Shown one piece after another: positions 1,767 through 8,188 of a stretch of 44,854 nucleotides of DNA. This DNA comes from a virus. The DNA is taken from positions 1 to 44,854 of the IMG/VR virus record IMGVR_UViG_3300037847_001486, one strand, 5' to 3'. Made by a program: the position numbers and the translations under genes. Within the stretch, counting starts at the first letter, position 1, and each line of letters starts with the position of its first letter. The notes under the pieces are model-generated. The model was not told the DNA's origin, ran no database searches, and saw nothing but the letters and a program-made list of their open reading frames with translations.

Positions 1767-2150
1767 ATGGGATTTTTTAGTTGGATTGCAATGGATACGG
1801 GAAGAAGTATCCGTAACAGACATGTCGAGGGCTACTCCTCACAGGTAGTATACATGCGAGACCAGAAGGGTAACGTGTGGAAGGAGGATGACTACGATGG
1901 GTATGGAGTGTTCGGTGGCAAGGACTTTTATCAGTTGCTCGCAGAGATGAACGAGGTCGAGGGGTTGACGGGTGACGTGAACAATGATCGGCAGCTTGGT
2001 ATAGACTTGGCGTTTAGTAAGGATGCGCACATATCACCGACACTCAATGAGCACCATCATTCGGATTGGGTTAACGAACACAATCAGCATTGCCCTGACC
2101 AAGGGTTTTTCTATGACCATGAAGATGAGGAAGATGATGAGACATGGTAG
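1767..2150 (+). CDS. Conserved phage/bacterial protein of unknown function (MGFFSW family)
   Basis: The N-terminus MGFFSWIAMDTGRSI, the segment VYMRDQKGNVWKEDDYDGYG and the block GVFGGKDFYQLLAEMN form a pattern I recognise from many Bacteroidetes phages and gut or marine contigs, where it is annotated as hypothetical. The usual length is about 120-150 residues, and this copy is 127. The C-terminus is very acidic with clustered His residues (EHHHSDW). It overlaps the start of the downstream methyltransferase gene by about 14 bases, which suggests coupling. No catalytic motif is apparent. Confidence 0.75.
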   Translation: MGFFSWIAMDTGRSIRNRHVEGYSSQVVYMRDQKGNVWKEDDYDGYGVFGGKDFYQLLAEMNEVEGLTGDVNNDRQLGIDLAFSKDAHISPTLNEHHHSDWVNEHNQHCPDQGFFYDHEDEEDDETW

Positions 2151-3138
2151 TTTATTTTCAGGTATAGGTGGGTTCGACTTGGCTGCCCAATGGATGGGCT
2201 GGACAAACGTATTCCACTGCGAGTGGGAAGACTTCCCGCGCAAGGTATTAAATCATCACTTTCCTAAATCAATATCATATGGAGACATCAAAGAAACAGA
2301 CTTTACTATTCACAGGGGACAAATCGACATCCTCTCAGGGGGATTCCCTTGCCAACCTTACTCCGTCGCAGGCAAGAGAGAAGGTAAAAACGACGATAGA
2401 CATCTCTGGCCTGAAATGCTACGAGCAATACGAGAAATTAAACCAAGGTACGTCGTGGGCGAAAACGTTCGTGGCCTGCTTAGTTGGAATGGAGGATTGG
2501 TTTTCGATGAGGTGCAAGCTGACTTGGAAGATGAAGGCTTCGAAGTCATCCCGTTTATACTTCCAGCTGCAAGCGTCAACGCCCCGCACAAAAGAGACAG
2601 GGTATGGTTTGTTGCTCACGCCAACGACAAGGGAGGACGTGGTGAACTTGGAGACGTTCCAAAAGCGAATGGAGAAGTATCCCAACGGAACAAAGATACC
2701 GAACCTAGCTACGCAAATCAGTCAGATGTTACCGACGCCACGCACAACGGACGTGGAGGGTGGCAAGGCCAGCGGGGTGAAGAACGATGGCAACGGATGG
2801 TATCGGGAGAACAAGAAGGGCGAACGATGGGGAGTGAAGCTCAGGGACGTAGCGGAGAACGGGATGCTACCAACGCCAAAGGTTCAGGACGAACGCCATG
2901 CACTGAGGGACAGGGGCAAGAGCAACCTCGGGGAAGAGATGGCGGAGGTTGGATATCAACGCCTTGGGACTCCTTCCCATCTCAACCCCCTGTTCTGTGC
3001 GGAGATGATGGGATTCCCCGCGAATTGGACGGTATCACCTTTTCTAAATGGAGAAAAGAATCAATCAAAGGATACGGCAACGCAATAGTGCCGCAGGTAG
3101 TGTATCCCATATTCAAAGCAATCGAAAGATTGGATTAG
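2137..3138 (+). CDS. dcm: DNA (cytosine-5) methyltransferase, Dcm family
   Basis: Transfers a methyl group from S-adenosylmethionine to C5 of cytosine, probably to mask phage DNA from host restriction. Numbered from the ATG at 2137, motif I is LFSGIGGFD (6-14), motif IV is GGFPCQ with catalytic Cys72, motif VI is ENV (109-111), motif VIII is HKRDRVW (151-157) and motif X is GYGNAIVP (312-319). The frame is open further upstream, but motif I begins six residues after this ATG; the adjacent ATG at 2134 is an equal alternative. The target-recognition region (about 160-290) is unusual, low-complexity and rich in Gly, Arg, Glu and Gln. That region coincides with a second gene encoded in another frame (2279-3088), which probably explains its composition. 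Confidence 0.93.
   Translation: MRHGSLFSGIGGFDLAAQWMGWTNVFHCEWEDFPRKVLNHHFPKSISYGDIKETDFTIHRGQIDILSGGFPCQPYSVAGKREGKNDDRHLWPEMLRAIREIKPRYVVGENVRGLLSWNGGLVFDEVQADLEDEGFEVIPFILPAASVNAPHKRDRVWFVAHANDKGGRGELGDVPKANGEVSQRNKDTEPSYANQSDVTDATHNGRGGWQGQRGEERWQRMVSGEQEGRTMGSEAQGRSGERDATNAKGSGRTPCTEGQGQEQPRGRDGGGWISTPWDSFPSQPPVLCGDDGIPRELDGITFSKWRKESIKGYGNAIVPQVVYPIFKAIERLD
2279..3088 (+). CDS. Conserved phage protein nested out of frame inside dcm (LPTP-repeat family)
   Basis: A 269-residue frame lies wholly inside the methyltransferase gene, shifted by one base on the same strand. It is not random: it matches from memory a phage protein family found beside or fused to cytosine methyltransferases. Hallmarks are CYEQYEKLNQGTSWAKTF, GMEDWFSMRCKLTWK, RLYFQLQ, ETGYGLLLTPT, two further LPTP repeats (MLPTPRTTD, MLPTPKVQD) and a C-terminal LNPLFCAEMMGFPANWT. 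In-frame TAA at 2249-2251 leaves the ATG at 2279 as the only ATG start. The role is unknown; a part in target recognition or a methyltransferase partner is inference. The alternative is a frameshifted fusion product of both frames. Confidence 0.75.
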   Translation: METSKKQTLLFTGDKSTSSQGDSLANLTPSQAREKVKTTIDISGLKCYEQYEKLNQGTSWAKTFVACLVGMEDWFSMRCKLTWKMKASKSSRLYFQLQASTPRTKETGYGLLLTPTTREDVVNLETFQKRMEKYPNGTKIPNLATQISQMLPTPRTTDVEGGKASGVKNDGNGWYRENKKGERWGVKLRDVAENGMLPTPKVQDERHALRDRGKSNLGEEMAEVGYQRLGTPSHLNPLFCAEMMGFPANWTVSPFLNGEKNQSKDTATQ

Positions 3139-3864: not shown

Positions 3865-4205
3865 ATCAAGTTTGGAGGGACGCGCGAGAGGATGGATCAT
3901 CCACCTTCGTCAAGGCGATGGGCAAGGATCCTGCCTTCGTGCTGAACAAAACCTTTAAAGTATACATCAAGGACGAGGAGTTGAAGGTATATAAGTGTAC
4001 GTCAGAACACTATCAGGAGCAGGACGCTAGCGTCTTCCTAAAATACGGATGGCATAAAGCCATAATACTGACATACTTAAATGCTTGCACCGAACGTCTC
4101 GATGTAATGATTGACTCCATGCAAAATGGGCTTCGCGAGGAGTCAGTCCATCCTAGAATTAAGAAGCTCATTAACAACTACAATGAAAAAATCAAATCAT
4201 TATGA
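3852..4205 (+). CDS. Hypothetical protein upstream of recombination genes (117 aa)
   Basis: The gene overlaps the DnaA-like gene by 13 bases and the annealing-protein gene by 4 bases (ATGA), so it is embedded in the replication/recombination operon. The 117-residue product has an N-terminal beta-rich half (FKVYIKDEELKVYKC) and a helical C-terminal half with charged residues. No known domain can be seen. Its placement suggests an accessory function for DNA recombination, which is inference only. Confidence 0.65.
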   Translation: MYTVNQVWRDAREDGSSTFVKAMGKDPAFVLNKTFKVYIKDEELKVYKCTSEHYQEQDASVFLKYGWHKAIILTYLNACTERLDVMIDSMQNGLREESVHPRIKKLINNYNEKIKSL

Positions 4206-4777
4206 GTGTATTTCAAAAGTTAAGCGCAATCCCTTTCAAGGATAGGGTCAAGCGCAAGGGTTCGTTAGATTATGTATCATGGGCAGATGCCTGGTCATTA
4301 GTTAAGAAGCATTATCCTGAGGCACAACGCACAGTGTATGAGCACGAGCACACGGGTCTCAACTTCTTCAGTGATGGACAGACGGCATACGTCAAGGTCG
4401 GTATTACTATCGATGGGCTAGAGCATATTGATATGCTGCCTGTGATGGACTACCGCAACAAGGCCATACCTGTAGATAGCATGACGGCATTCGATGTCAA
4501 CAAGACTATCCAGCGATCAACTGCCAAGGCGATTGCTATGCACGGATTGGGCTTGCAATTGTGGACGGGTGAGGACTTGCCGGGAGATAGTACTTCTGAG
4601 CCTGCCTCTACTACTAAGTTGCAACCCCTGAAGGTAGACGATAAGAACTGGGCTAAGGTCTGTAAGTACGTAGAGTCTAACAAGGACACGCACAAGTTCG
4701 ATGATATCATAAAGCAACTGTCTACTAAGTATAAGATAGATGCTAAGACTAAGACTGCGCTAAGAGCTAAGGCATGA
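4202..4777 (+). CDS. Sak3-like single-strand DNA annealing protein (DUF1071)
   Basis: Promotes annealing of complementary single strands during phage recombination, working with the exonuclease encoded next. The Sak3/DUF1071 signature is clear: LDYVSWADAW (22-31), a FFSDGQTAYVKVGITIDG block, HIDMLPVMDYRNKAIP (about 75-90), DVNKTIQRSTAKAIAMHGLG and a GEDLP at the end of the conserved core. The last 60 residues are a charged tail less typical of the family. Length 191 is normal. It overlaps both neighbours by 4 bases, so annealing protein and exonuclease are probably made together. Confidence 0.88.
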   Translation: MSVFQKLSAIPFKDRVKRKGSLDYVSWADAWSLVKKHYPEAQRTVYEHEHTGLNFFSDGQTAYVKVGITIDGLEHIDMLPVMDYRNKAIPVDSMTAFDVNKTIQRSTAKAIAMHGLGLQLWTGEDLPGDSTSEPASTTKLQPLKVDDKNWAKVCKYVESNKDTHKFDDIIKQLSTKYKIDAKTKTALRAKA

Positions 4778-5499
4778 GTGAGGTCTTAAATAATCTCAAG
4801 ATTGACGAGATGTACTACGGGGAGTATGGGCAGCAGTGGCTGTCCAACTCCGACATCTCATCACTCCTAGTTAATCCTGCAAACTTCAGGAAGGCTAGGA
4901 CAGATAGCAAAGCCCTGATAATGGGCAGGTACTTTCACTGGTCTATACTCGAGCCCGAGAAAGCCAAGGAAATACAATGCATCGATGCAACTACAAGGTC
5001 AACGAAGGCGTACAAGGAGGCTACACAGGACGGCAGTGTGATGTTACTATGTCACGAGCAGGCCCATGTAGACAAGATGGTTCAGGCCATCAAGCACAAC
5101 TTCGATTTCTTTGAGGGTATCTATGAAGAGGGCAATGTGTTCGAGCAGCCTGCTACTACTGAATTGTTTGACCTAGATTGGAAGGGCAAGGCGGACATCG
5201 TAGCAGGATCCCGCATCATTGACCTGAAGACCACGTCTAATCTCAATAGCTTTAGGCAGTCGGCATACAAGTTCAACTATGATAGTCAGGCGTATCTGTA
5301 TCAGAAGTTGTTCGGCAAGCCGATGGAGTTTTGGGCTATTGATAAGACAACGCTAGCGATGGGTCAGTTCCATTGCTCGGATGAATTTCTGCGGTCTGGT
5401 GAGCAGAAGGTGAAGGAGGCATCAGAAATTTATAAAAGATTTTTCGGGGAATCCTCCACCGAATCAATCGAGAATCATTATATTGTGGAGGAACTTTAA
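4774..5499 (+). CDS. RecE-like PD-(D/E)XK exonuclease (DUF3799 type)
   Basis: Likely 5'-3' double-strand exonuclease that generates the single strands used by the Sak3-like protein. The fold signature is present: GRYFHWSILEPE (51-62, with His55 and Glu60), Asp141 in KGKADIV, and Asp150-Leu-Lys152 in IIDLKTT, followed by a QAYLY helix (about 172-176). These correspond to the metal-binding and catalytic residues of RecE/exonuclease VIII C-terminal domains. Length 241 suits a stand-alone nuclease domain. The start overlaps the annealing gene by 4 bases. Confidence 0.88.
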   Translation: MSEVLNNLKIDEMYYGEYGQQWLSNSDISSLLVNPANFRKARTDSKALIMGRYFHWSILEPEKAKEIQCIDATTRSTKAYKEATQDGSVMLLCHEQAHVDKMVQAIKHNFDFFEGIYEEGNVFEQPATTELFDLDWKGKADIVAGSRIIDLKTTSNLNSFRQSAYKFNYDSQAYLYQKLFGKPMEFWAIDKTTLAMGQFHCSDEFLRSGEQKVKEASEIYKRFFGESSTESIENHYIVEEL

Positions 5500-5510
5500 A
5501 TTAATTTAAT

Positions 5511-5741
5511 ATGAGTAAAGAGAAAATTTTCGCAGACGGTTTCAATTTCAAGCGACGTGATAACGCTCCTGATTTTGTTGTAGGTAACCTCAGCCTCAAG
5601 GCTGAAGAGGCTATCCAGTTTATCAAAGACCGTACAAAGAACGGATGGGTCAACCTCAACATCAACCAAGCAAAGAGTGGCAGCTTCTATGTGGAGCTCG
5701 ACACTTATGAGCCTAAGAAGAAGGAGGAGCAACCCTTTTAA
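5511..5741 (+). CDS. Small protein with SSB-like C-terminal tip (76 aa)
   Basis: Directly follows the recombination pair. The compact 76-residue protein has beta-strand patterning (FVVGNLSLKAEEA, then GWVNLNI and GSFYVELDTYEP) and ends in KKEEQPF. An acidic C-terminus ending Pro-Phe is the hallmark of bacterial SSB tips that recruit replication and repair partners. I recall homologous small proteins in Bacteroidetes phages annotated as hypothetical. A minimal single-strand DNA-binding or partner-recruiting protein is a reasonable inference, but no full OB fold can be confirmed by eye. It is followed at once by a strong terminator. Confidence 0.7.
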   Translation: MSKEKIFADGFNFKRRDNAPDFVVGNLSLKAEEAIQFIKDRTKNGWVNLNINQAKSGSFYVELDTYEPKKKEEQPF

Positions 5742-5759
5742 TTTGTGGTTTGGTTCATG

Positions 5760-5788
5760 GGGGGAGGATTATCCTCCCCCTTTTTTTT
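5760..5788 (+). terminator. Intrinsic terminator after the recombination operon
   Basis: GGGGGAGG (5760-5767) pairs with CCTCCCCC (5773-5780) around a 5-base loop, followed by eight T residues (5781-5788). It lies 19 bases after the stop of the 76-residue gene and before the primase gene. It should end transcription of the first early block or limit read-through into the replication genes. Confidence 0.92.
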
Positions 5789-5806
5789 GTCGGGTAATCA
5801 AATCAC

Positions 5807-8188
5807 ATGATAACAATATTTCGAAACATAAAAGATACCGACCAGCCATTCTACAAGGACATCGTCTACATCTTACACAGGATTAGAGATGGTGCATCCA
5901 AAGATTTAATAAAGAAGATAAGGTCGGAGAAAGATAAGTCCAGGCGCAATGAATTAAAGCAAGGACTACCTGCCATTTGTTTTAGTGGCAAGTTCTCCCG
6001 CAGGTCTGACGCTGCATTGGTTGAGCACAGTGGTTTCATTGGGCTTGACTTCGATGGCTATGACAGGCAGAAGGACATGCTTCAGGACAAGGAGCAGATG
6101 AAGAAGAACAAGTTCGTCTTTTCGGTATTTGTTTCTCCTTCAGGCAATGGCCTAAAGGTTATTGTCAAGATACCACCTGAGCCACACAACCACACAAACT
6201 ATTTCAACTCGCTCAAGTCGTACTTCAACTCGGACAGATTCGATGTGTCCTGTAAGAACGTGAGTCGGGTGTGCTACGAAAGCTATGATCCACTGATTCA
6301 CATCAACGAGAACAGCTCAGTATGGGATTCGATAGCGGAGGATGAGCACAAGGAGGTAATCACTGGTGACGTTACAATACCAATCACAAACGAAGGCAAG
6401 ATAGTTGACATCTTAGTGTCGTGGTGGGAGCGTAAGTACCCTATGGTAGAGGGGCAACGCAATCACAATATCTATATTCTTGCAGCAGCGTTCAATGACT
6501 TTGGTATTCAGCGTTCGTTGGCTGAGTATGTGTTGACTAGGTATGAGGCAGAGGACTTCAGCGAAGAGGAGATAAAGGCTACTGTCGCTTCTGCTTATCG
6601 CCATGTAGACAAGTTCAATACACGATCATACGAAGACCAAGAGAAGGTCAGTAAGATACGTGATATGGTAAAGGCAGGCATGTCTCGTAAGGAGATACGT
6701 GCGGAGGTTGAGACTGCTGAGATATCTCCGGGTGTGGTTGACTCTGTGGTCAGTCGGATTGAGGAGGAGCAAAGCAATATGAAGTTCTGGACAAAGGATG
6801 ACAAGGGGCGCATCAAGATAATGCACCTATCATTCAAGAATTTCTTGGAGGAGCACGGCTTCTACAAGTACAACCCTGAGGGTAGTAAGAACTACGTCTT
6901 TGTCAGGGTGACTAACAACTTGATTGACCACACTTCAGAGAAGGAGATAAAGGATTTTGTTCTTAACTACCTGCTAGAGCTGGAGGATGCCACGCTGTAC
7001 AACTACTTCGCTGACAACGTGCGATACTTCAGGGAGGAGTTCCTTACGCTGCTTGCATCTATTGATGTGTACTTCATCGAGGATGAGAAGCAGGTGAGCT
7101 ATCTGTACTACCGCAACTGCGCTGTAAAGATTACTCCTACTGAGGTGATACCTATTGACTACCTTGATTTGGGTGGTTACGTATGGAAGGACCACGTCAT
7201 TGATAGGAACTTCACTATGTGTGAGCCAGGTAAGTGTGACTTCAAGACGTTCGTAAGTAACATCTGTGCTAAAGATTCTAAGAGGACTCAGTCAATGGAG
7301 TCTACTATAGGATACCTGATGCATGGCCACAAGAATATGTCTTACTGTCCTGCTGTGATCCTGAATGACGAGGTCATTTCAGACAACCCTGAAGGAGGTA
7401 CAGGTAAGGGGCTTCTTATGAATGCCCTATCACATATGAAGAAGCTGGTCACTATCGATGGTAAGTCATTCACATTCGAGAGTTCGTTTGCTTATCAGCT
7501 AGTGTCAGCAGATACTCAGATACTATGCTTTGATGATGTGCGCAAGGCCTTCAACTTTGAGCGGCTGTTCTCTGTAGTTACAGAGGGTCTCACGCTAGAG
7601 AAGAAGAACAAGGACGCAATCAAGATACCATTCAAGAAGTCTCCTAAGATTTCAATCACTACTAACTATGCCATCAAGGGTAAGGGTAATTCGTTTGAAC
7701 GACGTAAGTGGGAGCTGGAGCTACATCAGTTCTACAATAAAGACTTCACACCCTTTGATGAGTTTGGTCGTATGATGTTTGGTGATTGGGATGATGATGA
7801 GTGGTGCTCGTTTGACAACTACATGATTGGATGTCTCCAGCTGTATATGGTGGAGGGATTAGTCAAGAGTGAGTTCGTCAACCTTGCGGTGCGTAAGCTT
7901 AGTGCTGAGACCTGCCATGAATTTATTGAGTGGTGTGGCCTTATCAAGGGTAGTGAGGTTGCTGAGATTCTTGAGAGAGAAGGCAGGATCCACGCGCAGG
8001 AGATGTATGCTAAGTTCACGGATGAGTACCCTGACTTTGCTCCAAAGGCTAAGATGACAGTGAGTCGTATACGATTCTACAAGTGGCTCGCAGCTTATGG
8101 AACATTCAAGTATGGAAAGCCACCGGAGGAGGGGAAGGATGCAAGTGGCCGATGGTTTAGATTTATTAACGATGACCCCCCTTTTTAA
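5807..8188 (+). CDS. Primase-helicase: VirE/BT4734-like N-terminus plus SF3-like helicase
   Basis: Unwinds and primes phage DNA. The N-terminal part (about 50-200) matches the BT4734/VirE-N primase-like domain: FIGLDFDGYD with Asp81 and Asp83, FVSPSGNGLKVIVKIP (108-123), and a DVSCKNVSRVCYESYDP block. The C-terminal part is a viral SF3/D5-type ATPase: Walker A EGGTGKG (529-535), Walker B ILCFDD (572-577) and a sensor segment SITTN near 615, followed by an arginine-rich ERRKWELEL. At 793 residues it is a complete two-domain protein. With no polymerase gene in the window, it may load the host replisome. It follows the terminator at 5760-5788. Confidence 0.88.
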   Translation: MITIFRNIKDTDQPFYKDIVYILHRIRDGASKDLIKKIRSEKDKSRRNELKQGLPAICFSGKFSRRSDAALVEHSGFIGLDFDGYDRQKDMLQDKEQMKKNKFVFSVFVSPSGNGLKVIVKIPPEPHNHTNYFNSLKSYFNSDRFDVSCKNVSRVCYESYDPLIHINENSSVWDSIAEDEHKEVITGDVTIPITNEGKIVDILVSWWERKYPMVEGQRNHNIYILAAAFNDFGIQRSLAEYVLTRYEAEDFSEEEIKATVASAYRHVDKFNTRSYEDQEKVSKIRDMVKAGMSRKEIRAEVETAEISPGVVDSVVSRIEEEQSNMKFWTKDDKGRIKIMHLSFKNFLEEHGFYKYNPEGSKNYVFVRVTNNLIDHTSEKEIKDFVLNYLLELEDATLYNYFADNVRYFREEFLTLLASIDVYFIEDEKQVSYLYYRNCAVKITPTEVIPIDYLDLGGYVWKDHVIDRNFTMCEPGKCDFKTFVSNICAKDSKRTQSMESTIGYLMHGHKNMSYCPAVILNDEVISDNPEGGTGKGLLMNALSHMKKLVTIDGKSFTFESSFAYQLVSADTQILCFDDVRKAFNFERLFSVVTEGLTLEKKNKDAIKIPFKKSPKISITTNYAIKGKGNSFERRKWELELHQFYNKDFTPFDEFGRMMFGDWDDDEWCSFDNYMIGCLQLYMVEGLVKSEFVNLAVRKLSAETCHEFIEWCGLIKGSEVAEILEREGRIHAQEMYAKFTDEYPDFAPKAKMTVSRIRFYKWLAAYGTFKYGKPPEEGKDASGRWFRFINDDPPF

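Follow-up and report, generated by a model that had tools for sequence, protein, structure and literature searches.

The virus DNA that we analysed, a window of 44,854 nucleotides taken from an IMG/VR virus record of 55,098 bases, very probably encodes a single C5-cytosine methyltransferase as two chains made from the same DNA. We call the product of the outer frame alpha and that of the nested frame beta. Alpha is half an enzyme, without recognition region or motif IX, and beta, which would pair with it, carries an array of recognition modules and motif IX. The most likely reading of beta is a targeting domain detached from the rest of this split methyltransferase, since the beta sequence corresponds to the part missing from alpha and lies in frame with alpha in single-chain relatives.

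The beta ORF (269 aa) lies wholly within the outer ORF (2023-3138), in frame +1 (Table 1). The start of alpha was placed at 2023 by the tool and is supported by profiles at 2137, with further ATGs at 2125 and 2134; its stop is at 3138. An earlier note on this DNA had proposed that two recognisable proteins are encoded here in overlapping frames, and profile searches agree: alpha belongs with Pfam DNA_methylase and PHROG 363, and beta with PHROG 1008. The motif bases that it described as shared are indeed common to both frames, ENV with the KTF of SWAKTF, HKRDRVW with TKETGYGL, and GYGNAIVP with the stop codon of beta. On the 3' side of the locus (4202-8188), ORFs resembling by eye a recombinase, an exonuclease and a primase/helicase suggest an early replication region.

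Table 1. Features of the overlapping methyltransferase locus (positions in the window).
Feature	Position	Strand	Basis or remark
Alpha, C5-cytosine methyltransferase frame, motifs I-VIII and X	2137..3138	+	Pfam DNA_methylase, PHROG 363, AF2/M.HhaI
Beta, nested +1 ORF, 269 aa, proposed target-recognition subunit	2279..3088	+	PHROG 1008, conservation
Beta start ATG, proposed	2279..2281	+	No Shine-Dalgarno-like element in the window
Alpha motif IV, GGFPCQ	2338..2355	+	G69, P71, C72 and Q73 invariant (alignment A2)
Alpha motif VI, ENV, bases common with beta KTF	2461..2469	+	Sequence, alpha alignment
Alpha motif VIII, HKRDRVW	2587..2607	+	ORF translation, alpha alignment
Alpha linker, Gly/Arg/Glu/Gln-rich, mostly predicted disordered	2608..3069	+	AF2 pLDDT, substitution phase
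Beta module 1 (LLTPTTREDVVNLETFQ...)	2612..2725	+	Module census
Beta module 2 (MLPTPRTTDVEGG...RENKKGERWGVKLRD), type common to very different alphas	2726..2863	+	Module census
Beta module 3 (MLPTPKVQDERHALRDRG...)	2864..2974	+	Module census
Beta motif-IX-like element, SHLNPLFCAEMMGFPANWT	2975..3031	+	Alignments with canonical enzymes and Trax gp78
Alpha motif X, GYGNAIVP	3070..3093	+	Sequence, alpha alignment; beta stop TAG (3086-3088) inside

Alpha matched DNA_methylase with E = 2e-43, the match being confined to positions 1-180 of the 324 in the profile, and PHROG 363 with E = 1e-79. An alignment of 36 alphas showed conserved motifs I, IV (GGFPCQ, with the catalytic cysteine), VI (ENV), VIII (HxRxR) and X (GNAIVP). 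No column of this alignment was invariant from motif VIII to residue 277, and W277 and G292 were the sole invariant columns from there up to K311 of motif X. The AlphaFold2 (AF2) model was confident for most of residues 1-164 and for the C-terminal helix; residues 165-310 mostly had pLDDT below 50 and were predicted to be disordered. The top structural matches of the model were structures of M.HhaI (best Z 18.8, rmsd 3.2, 194 residues aligned). According to PMC3404938, the small domain of M.HhaI and M.HaeIII contains the variable recognition region as well as motif IX. The canonical layout, with motifs I-X and the recognition domain in one chain, is not that of alpha, which has the make-up of the large chain of two-polypeptide enzymes: motifs I-VIII without motif IX. 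Its linker is stop-free across the beta modules and motif IX.

Beta matched PHROG 1008, a family labelled 'DNA methyltransferase', with E = 2.4e-19 over residues 15-252. The 13 other betas scanned also matched it (E = 1e-12 or better), and the family had no match in 14 control genomes. For the window beta, neither Pfam nor NCBIfam gave a family up to E = 1, and the other betas had no Pfam match above the cut-off. The N-terminal region of beta overlaps alpha as far as motif VIII and is followed by the modules (LLTP, MLPTP and MLPTP) and then by SHLNPLFCAEMMGFPANWT. Aligned with motif IX of E. coli Dcm and of phages Javan240 and SpP, this last element scored 22.9, a value reached by none of 100 column-shuffled controls (maximum 19.4). 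The profile match of beta motif IX to canonical enzymes is weak taken alone (E = 0.019). A firmer link comes through homologues: motif IX of Trax gp78, from a Gordonia phage, aligned with the element with E = 9e-5. This likeness of the beta C-terminus to a motif absent from alpha had been missed by the earlier note and, judged on sequence only, gives beta the make-up of the second, motif-IX-bearing chain of two-polypeptide enzymes. The AF2 model of beta was poor (pLDDT 44) and was not used for a fold search. A PDB sequence search with the beta profile returned no methyltransferase, its one match (E = 0.9) being irrelevant.

The modules were counted with a simple pattern, which found 502 of them in 192 distinct loci, with a median length of 39 aa (middle half 34-44) and one to six per locus; one locus had none by this pattern. 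At 60% identity they formed 147 clusters. They recur at differing positions and beside alphas that are only 39-46% identical. The type with RENKKGERWGVKLRD, for example, was found in 38 loci at several positions, and modules of L042 or L034 were 77-79% identical to those of L012, L016 and L017, whose alphas were 43-46% identical to theirs. Between motifs VIII and IX there are tandem, exchangeable units of about 40 aa, as in multispecific enzymes. Going by their sequences, the variation of the modules in number, order and partner would be that expected of exchangeable tandem recognition domains, and each module may read one DNA site.

The pieces encoded by the two frames are joined in some relatives. 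In Jabberwocky gp4 (444 aa, Gordonia phage), a single frame encodes motifs I-VIII, then four LPTP modules, a stretch resembling motif IX and finally motif X. This chain matched the alpha family PHROG 363 (E = 6e-78), PHROG 116 (E = 2e-75) and the beta family PHROG 1008 (E = 3e-67). It also matched Priya gp82 (E = 7e-36, 165 aligned columns), the beta chain of mycobacteriophage Priya, which has motif X in frame. The C-terminus of Trax gp78, a protein with motifs IX and X in alpha's frame, matched Priya gp82 as well (E = 7e-18); the Trax locus (L240, 1501-2364) has a mixed layout, with IX and X in the alpha frame and an LPTP-like module in +1. Among eight loci fetched with the Priya beta, four had one chain and four had two partly overlapping ORFs with beta in +1. 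The overlaps were 182 nt in Priya gp83/gp82, 38 nt in Chocolat gp80/gp81 and 32 nt in Samora gp34/gp35, and ByChance gp63/gp64 have none as annotated. In some phages of Arthrobacter, Streptomyces and Mycobacterium, the catalytic and module parts are two adjacent genes. The second chain contains motif X in Priya gp82, Chocolat gp81, Samora gp35 and ByChance gp64, and in the last three it begins at or near the first module. The layouts thus form a series that starts with one chain, passes through pairs of adjacent genes and ends with a gene lying entirely inside alpha, which then holds motif X; evolution may have run in this order.

These relatives bear on the earlier note. It had likened the nested product to a phage family found next to or fused to such enzymes; the two parts are adjacent genes in Chocolat (gp80/81) and one chain in Jabberwocky. 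It had also held that its idea would fail if the nested frame had no homologues outside the overlap; Chocolat gp81, ByChance gp64, Samora gp35 and Jabberwocky gp4 are such homologues.

The spread of the nested type is unexpectedly wide, and it recurs in phages of quite different hosts. One beta query gave beta-like matches in 267 phage records and another in 562, nearly all actinophages; these counts include many near-duplicates, and layouts were checked in a minority. In named phage and plasmid stretches of the overlapping type (L063-L070, L227, L228, L231-L235, L238 and L243), beta was in +1 in 17 of 17. The phages are those of Bacteroides, Porphyromonas, Paenibacillus, Lacticaseibacillus, Escherichia (among them ChristineMuster_Bas80, L231), Bordetella, Mycobacterium (Hades), Edwardsiella and cyanobacteria as well as two uncultured ones, and the plasmids those of Rhodoplanes and Salmonella. 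The beta frame ends within alpha in 15 of the 17; in L234 (1393-3111) and L243 (1400-2821) it passes the alpha stop towards the next gene. The beta frames of L029 (2450-3811), L031 (2450-3784) and L052 (2456-4057), and those inside L060 and L062, also run beyond the alpha stop, into an extra module. This module has an HTH-like stretch by eye (KIEHWFRKDK in L029), and the L029 extension matched Pfam Homeodomain below the cut-off (E = 0.01). In the records that we examined, either both frames bear the label 'DNA methyltransferase' or one frame only is annotated; both ORFs are called in K1ind2 and Bloom. In Cyanophage Cy-LDV1 (L228, 1308-2582), besides an antisense ORF, the annotation covers the beta frame in its later part only, and the alpha frame is unannotated despite a strong methyltransferase profile match.

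The conservation of the nested frame was assessed at loci fetched with alpha only. Two queries, both of the window's type and each with the best 80 of more matches kept, gave 154 loci that contained 146 distinct alphas; these counts are silent on its frequency among all phage methyltransferases. Among the matches listed, beta was in +1 at 154 of 154 loci. It was full-length, i.e., from profile position 20 or lower to at least 228 in one open frame, at all 146 distinct loci among these matches, and alpha was also full-length at 144 of them, the other two reaching the contig end. When the beta-fetched loci were added, beta was in +1 at 226 of 226 stretches, a count that includes duplicates and the copy in the window itself. 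Stop codons in close relatives, which would have spoken against the earlier note, were not encountered: the nested frame is open end to end in the fetched relatives. Synonymous-codon shuffling of 192 loci gave 0 stops against 420 expected in the beta frame over IV-VIII, and 0 against 1075 in the alpha frame over VIII-IX. The shuffled blocks came from ORFs preselected as open, and we therefore rely on the full-length count (146/146) instead. The nested ORF is a real gene and no shadow.

A Shine-Dalgarno-like element was present within 18 nt of the beta start in 44 of 190 stretches and absent from 146, including the window. In loci such as L021, L022 and L027, GAGGAGG is found 9 nt upstream of the beta ATG, which is itself one codon past a stop of the nested frame. 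Because of such loci, and although most stretches have no such element, independent internal initiation of beta seems plausible. One could also imagine a single chain produced by programmed frameshifting, in which alpha is read over I-VIII, a +1 shift leads into the modules and motif IX, and a shift back recovers motif X, the nested ORF being merely the middle part of a long chain. This would restore the single-chain order of Jabberwocky gp4. Yet, it needs two shifts in opposite directions, and it gives no reason for the roughly 300 nt of open nested frame ahead of motif VIII that are seen at 146 of 146 distinct loci among the matches listed. It also leaves the ATG and the upstream GAGGAGG of loci such as L021, L022 and L027 unrequired, and some actinophages have both parts as separate genes. 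We consider frameshifting unlikely. The earlier note had left three options, a subunit, a target-recognition partner or a product of frameshifting. The two opposite shifts and the long open upstream frame make the last less likely, and a subunit or target-recognition partner is best supported.

Even less probable is that beta is an independent protein, such as a regulator, a nuclease partner or an anti-restriction factor, that overlaps alpha by chance. The betas with an HTH-like extension past the alpha stop (L029, L031 and L052) would fit such a role, but beta is the very part that alpha lacks, and it is fused in frame to alpha in the single-chain relatives.

The codon phase of substitutions was analysed in 59 disjoint pairs, i.e., 118 of the 192 distinct loci, with alpha position 1 corresponding to beta position 3. 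Changes at alpha positions 1/2/3 numbered 120/64/481 over motifs I-III, before beta, 364/166/706 over IV-VIII, 1015/463/520 from VIII to the beta stop, and 90/49/288 after it. Taken pair by pair, position 1 exceeded position 3 over VIII-IX in 46 of 59 (reverse in 10, ties in 3), in the flanks in one of 59 (reverse in 54, ties in 4), and over IV-VIII in two of 59 (reverse in 47, ties in 10). The third-position rate drops over IV-VIII from 0.173 to 0.116 per site. The window itself, compared with L002, had 0/0/7 changes in the flanks and 12/3/2 over VIII-IX. With alpha's phase outside, beta's phase over VIII-IX and the lowered third-position rate over IV-VIII, selection therefore acts on alpha outside beta and chiefly on beta where the modules lie; across IV-VIII both frames appear to be under selection. 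The claim of the earlier note that both frames are selected agrees with this change to beta's phase between motifs VIII and IX. So does its observation that the outer recognition region degenerates where beta keeps its modules: alpha residues 165-310 are predicted disordered and the linker evolves in beta's substitution phase.

We compared three other types of enzymes. For the Jabberwocky type, which made the cleaner control and behaved as predicted, 13 loci were given, of which one duplicate was removed and one was dropped by the motif pattern. LPTP modules were in the chain in 10 of the remaining 11, and the motif IX pattern fitted eight; L338 has neither modules nor much similarity. The +1 frame of this type over IV-VIII contained 23 stops against 32 expected and was open in one of 11, and substitutions were in alpha's phase throughout (three pairs only). 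The Javan240 type (80 loci given, 53 distinct), whose enzymes keep motif IX in alpha's frame, was chosen as the canonical negative control. It failed as such and turned out to have a nested ORF of its own. Its +1 frame was open over IV-VIII at 53 of 53 distinct loci (148.9 stops expected), with a third-position rate of 0.066 there vs 0.151 and 0.127 on the flanking sides. In a separate count, a nested +1 ORF of 142-192 aa was present at 51 of 51 distinct loci. The phase flips right after motif VIII (71/43/38, vs 131/100/528 beyond the nested stop). The nested copy of Javan240 matched PHROG 16143, 'DNA methyltransferase' (E = 2e-63), and in one comparison its C-terminal stretch matched an in-frame stretch of the related L340 (26 residues, E = 4e-5). 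This nested +1 ORF of Streptococcus phages, e.g., L236 (1652-2071), differs from beta. Of the SpP type (47 given), 17 distinct loci passed the motif filter; the +1 frame over IV-VIII was open in eight of them and had 5-10 stops in nine.

An open +1 frame over IV-VIII is no proof of the window's arrangement. Since the Javan240 type and part of the SpP type have such frames, the case for the window depends on the stretch from VIII to IX and on the homologues. It is hardly credible that the nested frame is non-coding, a mere shadow cast by the conservation of alpha and held open by codon usage: the N-terminal half of the beta profile does match the +1 frame of some enzymes with motif IX in alpha's frame, that frame is open over IV-VIII, and the overlap couples alpha and beta residues, but over VIII-IX the substitution phase is beta's and not alpha's, the beta modules and motif IX are conserved and the alpha linker is low-complexity, beta homologues occur outside the overlap, and the Jabberwocky-type single chains do have stops in +1 over IV-VIII.

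From these controls, nested +1 genes may be a recurrent feature of phage C5 methyltransferases. There is an even chance, in our estimate, that these enzymes have repeatedly moved a piece of their own into an overlapping +1 gene, the module array and motif IX in the window and the segment after motif VIII in the Javan240 type, where recognition repeats (by eye) and motif IX remain in the main frame. Each frame would then be the older one over part of the overlap and overprinted elsewhere in it, and the nested chain would have gained an N-terminal half with a function of its own. Such a division between catalysis and targeting would permit shuffling of recognition cassettes within the length of a single gene.

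For the window, we favour the split enzyme. Alpha would provide the catalytic large domain (I-VIII) and motif X, with a linker without conserved fold between them. Beta, started inside alpha in frame +1, would provide its N-terminal region, the array of target-recognition modules and motif IX, and act as the small domain. Once translated and physically paired with alpha, it would give an active, possibly multi-specific methyltransferase, and the methylation might protect the phage DNA against host restriction. If this is true, many of the phage methyltransferases now in databases would be half enzymes, their specificity would lie in a frame liable to be omitted from annotation, and one annotated ORF would be insufficient to assign or clone methylation motifs. 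The natural series that leads from one chain via two genes to a gene inside another would also be useful for studying the origin of overlapping genes.

Several known systems resemble this arrangement in part. PHROG 1008 bears only the label 'DNA methyltransferase', which states neither subunit status nor frame. Among the titles and abstract openings listed from the open-licence PMC literature, none describes such an arrangement in phages. In M.EcoHK31I, the gene for the small chain lies within that for the large one, in a different reading frame. PMC3404938 presents M.AquI and M.EcoHK31I as two-polypeptide C5 methyltransferases, and PMC3439449 presents the latter as naturally split. M.EcoHK31I (YGGCCR) has motifs I-VIII and X in its large chain and IX in its small one, according to PMC3404938, and the window is alike, with GYGNAIVP in alpha. 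That account places the predicted recognition domain of M.EcoHK31I in the large chain, whereas alpha residues 165-310 are predicted disordered and evolve in beta's phase, and the recognition modules are on the small chain, where they form a tandem, shuffled array that, by description, also sets the window apart. M.AquI (CYCGRG) resembles the window in that its two chains divide within the variable region; the distal half of that region and motifs IX-X are on the second chain (PMC3404938). Priya gp82, Samora gp35, Chocolat gp81 and ByChance gp64, with motif X in the second chain, look AquI-like; the window differs in having motif X in the first chain and a second gene that is wholly nested. The multispecific enzymes of Bacillus phages such as SPR, phi3T and rho11 consist of one chain in one frame, and the window differs from them by having its array on a separate, out-of-frame chain. 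By description they are alike in their several tandem recognition domains, which PMC8936443 reports for Bacillus phage C5 methyltransferases. What is new relative to M.AquI and M.EcoHK31I is that the modular recognition array itself lies in the overlapping frame.
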